Origin: a virus | IMG/VR virus record: IMGVR_UViG_3300033431_000004 | Location: 1 to 22,316 of that record | Strand: one strand, 5' to 3' | Length of the DNA: 22,316 bases | Shown: piece after piece, positions 454-2,794 of the stretch | How the letters are laid out: each line of letters begins with the position of its first letter | Numbering within the stretch: the stretch's first letter is position 1 | The notes under the pieces: model-generated | What the model was told of the DNA's origin: nothing | The model's database searches: none | The model's input: the letters and a program-made list of their open reading frames with translations, nothing else | Made by a program: the position numbers and the translations under genes

Positions 454-749
454 AGTGGCCTTTCTATTTCGGCATTCCCGGTCGCGATCTTCCCGCGTGG
501 CTGTGCGTCGTGGCACCGATACCGGAGTATGAATCGATCGCCAATGTCGGACGCGTCGCGTGGAATCAGTTTTCTCTGGTCTGGAACTGGAAGCGTCGGT
601 ACGTCATCCGCAGCCTTTTCGGGATGTGTCCTATTCGGCTCGAAGAGGTCCGGCATTGTGTCATCACATTCCATTCGCCCGAGGGGTCAAACAATGTCGC
701 GTACATCGACGTTCGCCCGCTGATCTGCGCAATTGGACCTTTCCTATGA
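450..749 (+). CDS. Hypothetical early phage protein (99 aa)
   Basis: Starts at the ATG at 450 with a GGGAGG-like ribosome-binding site at about 436-442 and an ATGA overlap with the upstream gene. The frame stays open further upstream, but that part would overlap the previous gene, so the short start is preferred. The protein is rich in aromatic residues (MKWPFYF, VAWNQFSLVWNWKRRY) and lacks a convincing signal peptide or a clear transmembrane helix. I do not recognise a family. It ends in an ATGA overlap with ninB, so it is probably translationally coupled to it. Confidence 0.7.
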   Translation: MKWPFYFGIPGRDLPAWLCVVAPIPEYESIANVGRVAWNQFSLVWNWKRRYVIRSLFGMCPIRLEEVRHCVITFHSPEGSNNVAYIDVRPLICAIGPFL

Positions 750-1171
750 GTGCGCGGCTCTACAAGGAGTTCGTGCTGAACGGACCGGCTGTCTGGCAGC
801 TCGTCAAGGAGCTGATCCGCGAGCACGCCAGAGCATACATCGAGCGCGGCACGCCGCTGAGGCTGATCCTGACCACGGAAGAGCGCAAGCGGACGCTAGA
901 GCAGAACGGGCGCTACTGGTCGAAAGCGGTTCTGGGAGCGATCGCCGAGCAAGTGTGGATCGACGGCAAGCAATACCCGGAAGAGGTATGGCACGAGGAG
1001 TTCGCCGAACGCTACTGCCCGCGAATCGAGATCACGCTGCCGAGCGGCCAGATTTTCTCTCGTCGGAAGTCGACCAGTGAAATGACCGTGAAGGAGTTTT
1101 CGGAGTACGTGCAGCGCGTGGAAGTGCATGCAGCGACGCAATTGGGCGTCGAGTTCGATTCGATGAATTAA
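746..1171 (+). CDS. ninB: NinB/Orf-family recombination mediator
   Basis: A 141-residue protein, close to lambda Orf (NinB, 146 aa). Typical family features are visible: RTLEQNGRYWSK near the middle (the family has a conserved 'R-x-x-x-Q-N-x-x-x-W' segment), a D-G-K-x-Y-x-x-E-x-W-H segment, and the C-terminal KSTSEMTVKEFSEYV followed by GVEFD. Lambda Orf binds SSB and single-stranded DNA and helps load the phage annealing protein, replacing host RecFOR. Start is the ATG at 746, overlapping the upstream TGA; the frame is open upstream but only as overlap with the previous gene. Its place in a run of small early genes matches the nin region of lambdoid phages. Family assignment is strong. Confidence 0.93.
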   Translation: MSARLYKEFVLNGPAVWQLVKELIREHARAYIERGTPLRLILTTEERKRTLEQNGRYWSKAVLGAIAEQVWIDGKQYPEEVWHEEFAERYCPRIEITLPSGQIFSRRKSTSEMTVKEFSEYVQRVEVHAATQLGVEFDSMN

Positions 1172-1199
1172 CCCGCAGTACCAACCCAAGGAGCAGTCA

Positions 1200-1622
1200 G
1201 TGACTCACGCATACATCGGCACCAAGATCATTACGGCATGGCCTGAATCCCGTCCGAACGGCGAAGGCTACGCAGTCACGTATCCGGATGGCTATACGAG
1301 CTGGTCGCCTAAAGCTACTTTCGAAGAAGCGTATCGCGTCGTCGAAGGCGACGACCAGAAACTGTCGTTCGGCGACGCGCTGGTTTTTCTGAAGGCTGGT
1401 CGGCGCGTATCTCGCGGTGCTTGGCCCGCCAGTGTGTTTGTCTATCACGTGGCTGCTGATGCTTACATCGCGCGCTCAGAGGTGGCGAAAACTCACTTTG
1501 GTGATGGTGCGCTAGTGCCATATAAGGCGTATCTCGCGATCAAACAGGCCGACAACGAAGTGTGCGTATTCGTGCCGGGCATGGATTCGCTGCTTGCGGA
1601 AGATTGGCGCGTCGTCGCGTAA
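1200..1622 (+). CDS. Two-domain protein with a C-terminal Tad2-like (DUF2829) domain; candidate Thoeris anti-defence protein
   Basis: GTG start at 1200 with AAGGAG ribosome-binding site at about 1188-1193; 140 aa. Residues 1-48 form a short module (YIGTKI...PDGYTSWSPK..FEEAYR) that I know from many phage proteins of unknown function. Residues 55-139 fit the DUF2829/Tad2 pattern: LSFGDALVFLKAGRRVSRGAW at the start and DSLLAEDW at the end. Tad2 proteins bind the cyclic ADP-ribose isomer made by the Thoeris ThsB sensor and so block that abortive-infection system. The domain call is by pattern recognition. Sequestration of a signal by this copy is inference, and the fused N-terminal module has no known role. 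No Shine-Dalgarno-coupled overlap is seen, so it may be regulated apart from ninB. Confidence 0.8.
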   Translation: MTHAYIGTKIITAWPESRPNGEGYAVTYPDGYTSWSPKATFEEAYRVVEGDDQKLSFGDALVFLKAGRRVSRGAWPASVFVYHVAADAYIARSEVAKTHFGDGALVPYKAYLAIKQADNEVCVFVPGMDSLLAEDWRVVA

Positions 1623-1709
1623 CTCGAAACCCCGTGGCGGCAAGTGCTTGGGGCAGCGGAAGTAGCGCGTAAGACCCTAGGCGGCACGAATCGATTGGAG
1701 AAAGTGGGC

Positions 1710-2033
1710 ATGAAACTCTGCAAAGACTGCAAATTTGGTCCAAAGCCGTTTCAGATTGATTTCACGACGGGCCACACGGCCTATTGCTCGCATCCGAATG
1801 CACCAGTCGATCCTGTCTTTGGAAACAAAGACGGCTCTTTCCAGTTAATGCGATCGGTCAATTGCCTGGTCGATCATTGCGGGCCGAACGGAGACTGGTT
1901 CGAAGAAGCACCCTCTTGCCAGCCACCAGTCGAGCCGAAGCGCGAGCGTGACTATGCTGGTACATACGGCGGCACCGATGACGTCGTGCGGCGTACCGGC
2001 TTCCTTGAGCGCATGTTCGGGAGGTGGCTCTGA
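1710..2033 (+). CDS. Cysteine-rich small protein, paralogue A (107 aa)
   Basis: Starts at the ATG at 1710 (GGAG at 1697-1700); an upstream frame extension lacks a ribosome-binding site. The first 67 residues hold a five-cysteine pattern: C4-x2-C7 (MKLCKDCK), C26-S-H-P, C52 and C57-G-P...WF. The next gene repeats the same pattern, so the two are a duplicated family. A four- or five-cysteine layout of this kind usually binds zinc. The last 40 residues (Pro/Glu-rich, ending in a basic FLERMFGRWL) are absent from the paralogue. Function is unknown. It ends in a TGATG overlap with the next gene, so both are co-translated. The 88-bp gap before it holds no other feature I can name. Confidence 0.8.
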   Translation: MKLCKDCKFGPKPFQIDFTTGHTAYCSHPNAPVDPVFGNKDGSFQLMRSVNCLVDHCGPNGDWFEEAPSCQPPVEPKRERDYAGTYGGTDDVVRRTGFLERMFGRWL

Positions 2034-2302
2034 TGAAGTTCTGCAAAGACTGCAAGCACTTCGAGCCGGAGTTTAGTTGCGATGGTGGCTCGCTACTGCC
2101 GGGTTTCTTCTATTACAGAGAGCCGCTCTGCAAGCATCCAGATGGCGCGAAAGAAGTAATAGACCGCGTCAAAGGGGATCATAGGTGGCTGAACATGGGG
2201 TGCAAATTTAACAGAGACAGTGAAGATGCCTGCGGTCCGAGGGCTAAGTGGTTCGAACCCGCCAATCTGGACGGTCGGCTGGCGATGCTGGAGAACGACT
2301 GA
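2033..2302 (+). CDS. Cysteine-rich small protein, paralogue B (89 aa)
   Basis: Starts at the ATG at 2033 inside the TGATG overlap with paralogue A, with GGGAGG at about 2019-2024 as ribosome-binding site. It opens MKFCKDCKHFEPEF, nearly the same as paralogue A, then C33-K-H-P, C57, and C67-G-P...KWFEPA. Both proteins therefore share CxxC, CxHP and CGP..WF landmarks with variable spacers. Paralogue B has an extra C16. A zinc-binding fold is inferred from the cysteine layout; the role is unknown. It ends at TGA 2300-2302, which overlaps the start of an amber-interrupted cysteine-rich frame. Confidence 0.8.
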   Translation: MKFCKDCKHFEPEFSCDGGSLLPGFFYYREPLCKHPDGAKEVIDRVKGDHRWLNMGCKFNRDSEDACGPRAKWFEPANLDGRLAMLEND

Positions 2303-2466
2303 TGATCGAGATCAAACCCGCCGTTGAGCAGAAAGCCTGCGGAAACGATGACTGCCGTGATTTGACCGACGACTGCACTTAGGTCGTCGATAAGGTCCAT
2401 TGCTGGCTGTACGACCCCGCTCGTGGGATGTGTCCGTTTTTGCGCAAGGACGGCGATGACCGCTAG
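2302..2466 (+). pseudogene. Small cysteine-rich gene interrupted by an in-frame amber codon (26 aa + 27 aa)
   Basis: An ATG at 2302 overlaps the stop of the previous gene. The frame reads MIEIKPAVEQKACGNDDC..., meets TAG at 2380-2382, then continues without another stop through VVDKVHCWLYDPARG... and CPFLRK to a second TAG at 2464-2466. Both halves are protein-like and carry cysteines (C13, C18, C25 before the TAG; C34 and C44 after it), like the neighbouring small proteins. The simplest reading is a nonsense mutation in a 53-residue gene. Alternatives are a true 26-residue protein or amber read-through in a suppressor host. No similar full-length sequence can be checked here. Confidence 0.5.
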
Positions 2467-2794
2467 GTTGATCTTCCCGAAAACACTCACCTATCGGAAC
2501 AAGCGCATCCGCGACTCCGCGCGCGACGAGGAATGTCTAGTGCGTCTGCCGGGCGCGTGCCTGTGCAATCCGGAAGCGACTATCTGGAGTCACTACCGCG
2601 GCGGCGCGGGCGGCAAGGGCGGCGCGCTAAAGGCTGATGACCTGTGCGGCGCCTACGCGTGCACGGCGTGCGATGCGGTGTACGACGGGCAACGGCCGCC
2701 GCCGGCGGGGATGACTTACGACGAGGTTGTTGCGGCGTGGCACGAAGGGCACATCCGGTCGATCGTTCGTCTGCATGAAAAGGGCGTCATATGA
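2456..2794 (+). CDS. YbcO-like (DUF1364) putative metal-finger nuclease
   Basis: 112 aa from the ATG at 2456, with AAGGA at 2446-2450 as ribosome-binding site; it overlaps the end of the amber-interrupted frame. The sequence RNKRIRDSARDEECLVRLPG, then CLCNPE..., SHYRGGAGGKGG, KADDLCGAYACTACDAVYDG and a C-terminal GHIRSIVRLHEKG is the DUF1364 family signature. E. coli YbcO, of the DLP12 prophage, is the reference member and its crystal structure was described as nuclease-like with a zinc-finger/HNH-type core. Cysteines near 32, 39, 41, 67, 72 and 75 and the SHYRGG histidine fit metal binding. Family neighbours in lambdoid phages include ninB, as here. A role in recombination intermediates is inferred; activity is not proved. 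Confidence 0.88.
   Translation: MTARLIFPKTLTYRNKRIRDSARDEECLVRLPGACLCNPEATIWSHYRGGAGGKGGALKADDLCGAYACTACDAVYDGQRPPPAGMTYDEVVAAWHEGHIRSIVRLHEKGVI

Follow-up and report, generated by a model that had tools for sequence, protein, structure and literature searches.

A two-module Tad2-family phage protein from a divergent clade, probably a signal sponge with a modified pocket

Background

Which signal, if any, is captured by a phage protein that joins a Tad2-like domain to a second small module and carries other residues where its relatives have nearly invariant ones? Sponges of the Tad2 family are homotetramers with two shared pockets, which bind a nucleotide immune signal and sequester it uncleaved. 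Their ligands vary from member to member and comprise gcADPR, His-ADPR and cyclic dinucleotides. The gene considered here lies near one end of an IMG/VR entry 22,316 bases long, the whole of which is referred to as the window. A preliminary description of the locus had proposed a Tad2-like domain behind a separate N-terminal module, encoded by an accessory gene with a ribosome-binding site of its own. The features on which our analysis rests are collected in Table 1.

Table 1. Features of the locus in window coordinates
Feature	Positions	Strand	Basis and remarks
NinB recombination mediator	710..1171	+	Pfam/PHROG; upstream neighbour
Accessory block with the Tad2 fusion, a pair of small Cys-rich ORFs and a YbcO-like nuclease	1172..2790	+	Flanked by ninB and the gene at 2791; prophage comparison
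Shine-Dalgarno sequence AAGGAG	1188..1193	+	Sequence; 6 nt 5' of the GTG start
Gene of the N-terminal module-Tad2 fusion	1200..1622	+	140 aa, GTG start; near-identical copy known; dN/dS 0.11 versus locus L020
N-terminal module	1200..1337	+	Residues 1-46; GTK..GYxVxYxDGYxSWSPKxxFExAY; four strands and a helix in the model
Tad2-like domain PF11195	1365..1616	+	Residues 56-139; Pfam, PDB sequence and fold matches
Loop b1-b2, GAWPASV replacing canonical xGWNGKGM	1416..1436	+	Residues 73-79; domain comparison
Clade motif F124-V-P-G127-M-D-S130 replacing W-x-x-S-x-x-D	1569..1589	+	Tree, domain comparison, DNA scan

Results

The presence of a Tad2-family domain in the open reading frame 1200-1622 is confirmed. 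A Pfam profile search assigns its C-terminal part to the Tad2-like family PF11195 (E=1.2e-13), with a score of 51.8 bits against a curated cut-off of 25 bits, which by this measure is far beyond chance, and the motifs that had been quoted for the domain are present. Sequence search of the PDB returned ModTad2 (9eib, 1e-16), the Myroides Tad2 entry 8v3e (1e-16) and SPO1 Tad2 (8sme, 5e-9), and the AcrIIA7/HgmTad2 entry 8kbi matched weakly. Relatives of the protein occur in 166 deposited phage records, and a near-identical copy is encoded by the 53.7-kb viral contig IMGVR_UViG_3300033159_000001. An AlphaFold2 model of the monomer, built from an alignment of 25 fusions, reached a pLDDT of 96 and a pTM of 0.82. 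Comparison of this model with the PDB by Foldseek, which the preliminary description had proposed as a check, bore out the assignment: all 24 chains with E<=0.001 come from Tad2-family structures, ModTad2 in complex with His-ADPR (9eib, 2e-8) ranking first, and in a viral model library the named hits with significant scores are annotated as Tad2-like or DUF2829. By its fold, then, the window protein is a Tad2-family member.

The gene belongs to a tailed phage. The portal, head, scaffold, closure and terminase proteins of this phage can be assigned to PHROG families. As had been claimed, the gene has its own ribosome-binding site six bases before the GTG start. Its separation from the neighbouring run of genes holds in part, in that it sits in a block with gaps on either side, but these gaps measure 28 nt to ninB and 87 nt to the next downstream ATG and all genes lie on one strand. 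The claim of accessory status fares better. In a related Paraburkholderia prophage, which comes from a genome of the same genus as the Paraburkholderia antibiotica record and has an 80% identical terminase, the block is missing at this position. There ninB runs with an overlap into the next gene, which is homologous to the one at 2791, and the two phages thus differ by insertion or deletion of the block. This comparison, together with a GC3 of 0.61 in the fusion gene as compared to about 0.84 in the structural genes, points to an accessory gene. A Paraburkholderia-like host is suggested. Among 148 Paraburkholderia genomes 17 contain ThsB_TIR, in one case adjoining ThsA (3e-196), and a search of the Paraburkholderia antibiotica genome that carries a member of the clade described below gave no ThsB_TIR match.

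The same block holds two small Cys-rich ORFs (1710-2033 and 2024-2302), both starting with K(L/F)CKDCK and without Pfam or PHROG match, and a similar Cys-rich ORF lies 3' of a Tad2 fusion in another locus (L107). The large terminase subunit of the window phage (5390-6733) shares 50% identity with those of the Synechococcus phages Ssp-JY42 and Yong-M4-211.

In a tree of 47 Tad2 domains the window protein falls into an eight-member clade (support 99/97), which is nested in a set of 15 rows that includes ModTad2 (98/97), with SPO1 Tad2 and HgmTad2 outside. When the motif columns are removed, a set of 18 rows in which the clade is joined by the ModTad2-like rows retains a support of 99/95, but the alternative that the clade goes with SPO1 Tad2 and HgmTad2 is not formally rejected (p-AU 0.168). 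Grouping with 9eib in a ModTad2-like subgroup carries 98/97 with the motif included and faces this alternative without it. All eight members have F in place of W124, G in place of S127 and S in place of D130. Outside the clade, in 59 Tad2 domains from phages and prophages with hosts of several phyla, W124 and D130 are invariant (59/59 each) and S127 is found in 54 of 59. In addition, most clade members have lost the G-W-N-G loop (G74, N76, G77). The member from the Paraburkholderia antibiotica prophage keeps WNG and already has F, G and S, so that the change in the C-terminal motif may have preceded that in the loop. A scan of DNA for the degenerate motif turned up a ninth member of the clade that has these replacements too, and gave no sign of convergence, as its Tad2 matches all lie inside the clade and its other matches are unrelated ORFs. 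The clade sample is small, with nine distinct sequences, and its dN/dS values range from 0.06 to 0.23, several of the dS values being near saturation. Low ratios of this kind indicate purifying selection and argue against decay.

One bacterial genome has five Tad2-like matches (G445; L118, L120-L123), and in Vibrio phage 1F273_PE002 two genes that overlap are each annotated as Thoeris anti-defence (L124:1-464).

The W..S..D signature at the end of strand b4 and the start of helix a3, combined with the GWNG loop, is an empirical one that was found in the present analysis and is not a formal definition; it is common to the gcADPR and His-ADPR binders and absent from the window protein. A review names loop b1-b2, loop b3-b4, strand b4, loop b4-a3 and helix a3 as the segments that line the pocket of SPO1 Tad2 (PMC12043709). 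When the changes are mapped onto the secondary structure of our model, those of the GWNG loop fall into loop b1-b2, F124 lies just past strand b4, G127 in loop b4-a3 and S130 in helix a3. The replaced residues would therefore be located in or next to pocket-lining segments. Changes at such sites under purifying selection make altered specificity a likelier explanation than decay.

Could the protein nevertheless be, in line with the preliminary description, an ordinary Tad2 that sequesters the gcADPR of type I Thoeris, the three replacements being neutral and the ligand unchanged? The fold is that of SPO1 Tad2, the exchange of W for F retains an aromatic side chain, and a type I ThsA does adjoin a TIR gene in a Paraburkholderia genome. 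Neutrality is, however, hard to reconcile with a W and a D that persist in all 59 outside domains, very different sequences among them, with three linked changes accompanied by loss of most of the GWNG loop, and with a tree that places the window protein with ModTad2 and not with SPO1 Tad2. We thus regard an unchanged gcADPR sponge as unlikely. About equally improbable, if not slightly more so, is that the domain has kept the Tad2 fold and given up nucleotide binding for another role, such as that of a scaffold or of an inhibitor of the anti-CRISPR kind. It is true that residues conserved in the ligand-binding relatives are gone from the reported pocket-lining segments, and that Tad2-family members have been deposited as AcrIIA7. 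Yet within the clade the motif that has taken their place is in its turn strictly conserved, and purifying selection acts there, as would be expected of a new constraint at the same site more than of a loss of function. Since the protein groups with ModTad2, a binder of His-ADPR, and not with the gcADPR binder SPO1 Tad2, and since W, S and D are all missing, its ligand cannot simply be transferred from any known Tad2.

The N-terminal module was rightly recognised as separate, residues 1-46 forming a distinct unit. Its fusion to Tad2, which had been described as differing from the minimal Tad2, is not special to this phage and turns out to be common: the protein corresponds to phrog_872, and the same architecture is found in N4 gp49, Acidovorax AP1, Ruegeria 45A6, Kapi1 and many other phages. 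We were unable to equate the module with a named domain. Profile searches assigned it to no Pfam or NCBIfam family, its resemblance to Tudor, chromo and SH3-like domains is weak (Tudor_5 reaching at best E 0.003 among 52 members), Foldseek gave matches at E>0.1 only, and a sequence search of the PDB gave none below E 0.9.

More informative are its partners. Of the 80 viral-contig loci nearest to the window's module, a ranking by similarity that may bias the Tad2 share upward and leaves the other partners unselected, 30 have the module joined to Tad2, 19 to PF21825 (crAss001_48) and 12 to PF13876; it stands alone in 18 and is truncated in one. PF13876 is the family of the anti-CBASS sponge Acb4, several homologues of which carry extensions (PMC11722364), and a profile of the module-fused PF13876 copies matches SPO1 Acb4 (1.8e-9). 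The module is thus a small independent domain common to the Acb4 sponge family and Tad2. Moreover, an Acb4-family gene adjoins the Tad2 gene in nine of the fetched loci, including that of N4, and the two are fused in one (L109). The window and its 53.7-kb relative contain no Acb4-family gene. In the model phage N4, gp48 (PF13876, 8.8e-35) is followed directly by gp49 (L011:3603-4456), and the two are predicted to form a two-sponge pair. The fused case, which starts at a contig edge, is a single ORF in which part of an N-terminal module is followed by Tad2 and then by an Acb4-family domain (L109:1-696).

Other arrangements were also seen. Two Tad2 domains lie near each other in L063:2655-3363, the second one behind an N-terminal module. 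A clade member in L108:3521-4261, the same gene as L113:7521-8264, retains the WNG loop and has a different N-terminal region (KPSVGRVVWFTP...), and a region similar to it forms a separate ORF in a prophage (G087, L143), from which it appears that Tad2 swaps its N-terminal partners. A relationship of PF21825 to Acb2 was considered and rejected, as there was no PDB sequence or fold match and hhalign with T4 Vs.4 gave a probability of 0.1%.

These associations also bear on whether the protein has anything to do with defence. The Tad2 fold might merely be a shared scaffold for binding small ligands, here in a metabolic or structural accessory protein of the phage; the function is after all read from a sequence and a model, and related genes elsewhere also adjoin packaging genes. 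Given the repeated fusion and adjacency with the Acb4 sponge family and the accessory placement of the gene, we consider this very improbable.

Discussion

Taken together, the protein is probably a two-module signal sponge of the Tad2 type with a modified pocket, which recognises an ADP-ribose-type ligand in a way unlike that known for gcADPR. The tailed phage would infect Paraburkholderia or a near relative, and the protein would serve it as an accessory means of anti-defence: the Tad2-fold C-terminal half may capture a nucleotide immune signal produced by host TIR proteins of the Thoeris type or by related enzymes, and the host effector would then stay off. The pocket of the clade appears to have been rebuilt by the exchange of W for F, S for G and D for S, with most of the GWNG loop lost as well. 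The ligand is probably still of the ADP-ribose type and recognised differently from gcADPR, and the first candidates would be His-ADPR, as bound by the closest relative of solved structure, or some other product of TIR enzymes. The N-terminal module most likely aids assembly or avidity or else supplies a second binding site. We infer the sponge activity, the class of ligand, the role of the module and the host from the comparisons described above.

A more far-reaching proposal, which we put forward tentatively and hold to be rather doubtful as a whole, is that this Tad2 lineage has been reshaped to bind a signal outside the range of all known Tad2 proteins, that the N-terminal module is a general sponge accessory, that PF21825 is a further sponge family and that the stand-alone modules belong to the same toolkit. 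Irrespective of this, a clade in which pocket segments have changed in a coordinated manner and have then been conserved allows a direct test of how sponge specificity shifts, and may point the way to an immune signal not yet recognised. The N-terminal module in turn ties together two proven sponge families and offers a route to the prediction of others, PF21825 in the first place.

How does the window protein compare with the systems already known? It is closest to ModTad2 from a Myroides odoratus prophage (9eib, with His-ADPR), with which it shares the Tad2 fold, a supported clade and a similar segment F.Y.VP...Y..QT..K..FG...V.Y..YLA.K, and which is its best match in both the PDB sequence search and Foldseek. 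The solved ModTad2, however, lacks the N-terminal module and retains the W, S, D and GWNGKGM loop that are all missing in the window protein. SPO1 Tad2 (8sme/8smf, with gcADPR) has the same fold and the core F-G-x-A...R-x-x-W...LA-x-D-W, but lies outside the clade, has W/S/D and the NG loop intact and likewise lacks the module. The proteins of the N4 gp49/phrog_872 type match the window protein in combining the N-terminal module with Tad2 and differ from it by a longer module with an RGW..PA..E insert and by a canonical SQxD motif; N4 in addition has the Acb4-family gp48 directly upstream of gp49, whereas the window has no such gene. Finally, the Acb4 family (PF13876) has a C-terminal domain that is unrelated to Tad2 and of which none was found in the window, yet it shares with the window protein the N-terminal module, as seen in 12 of the 80 nearest loci, and the logic of a sponge.
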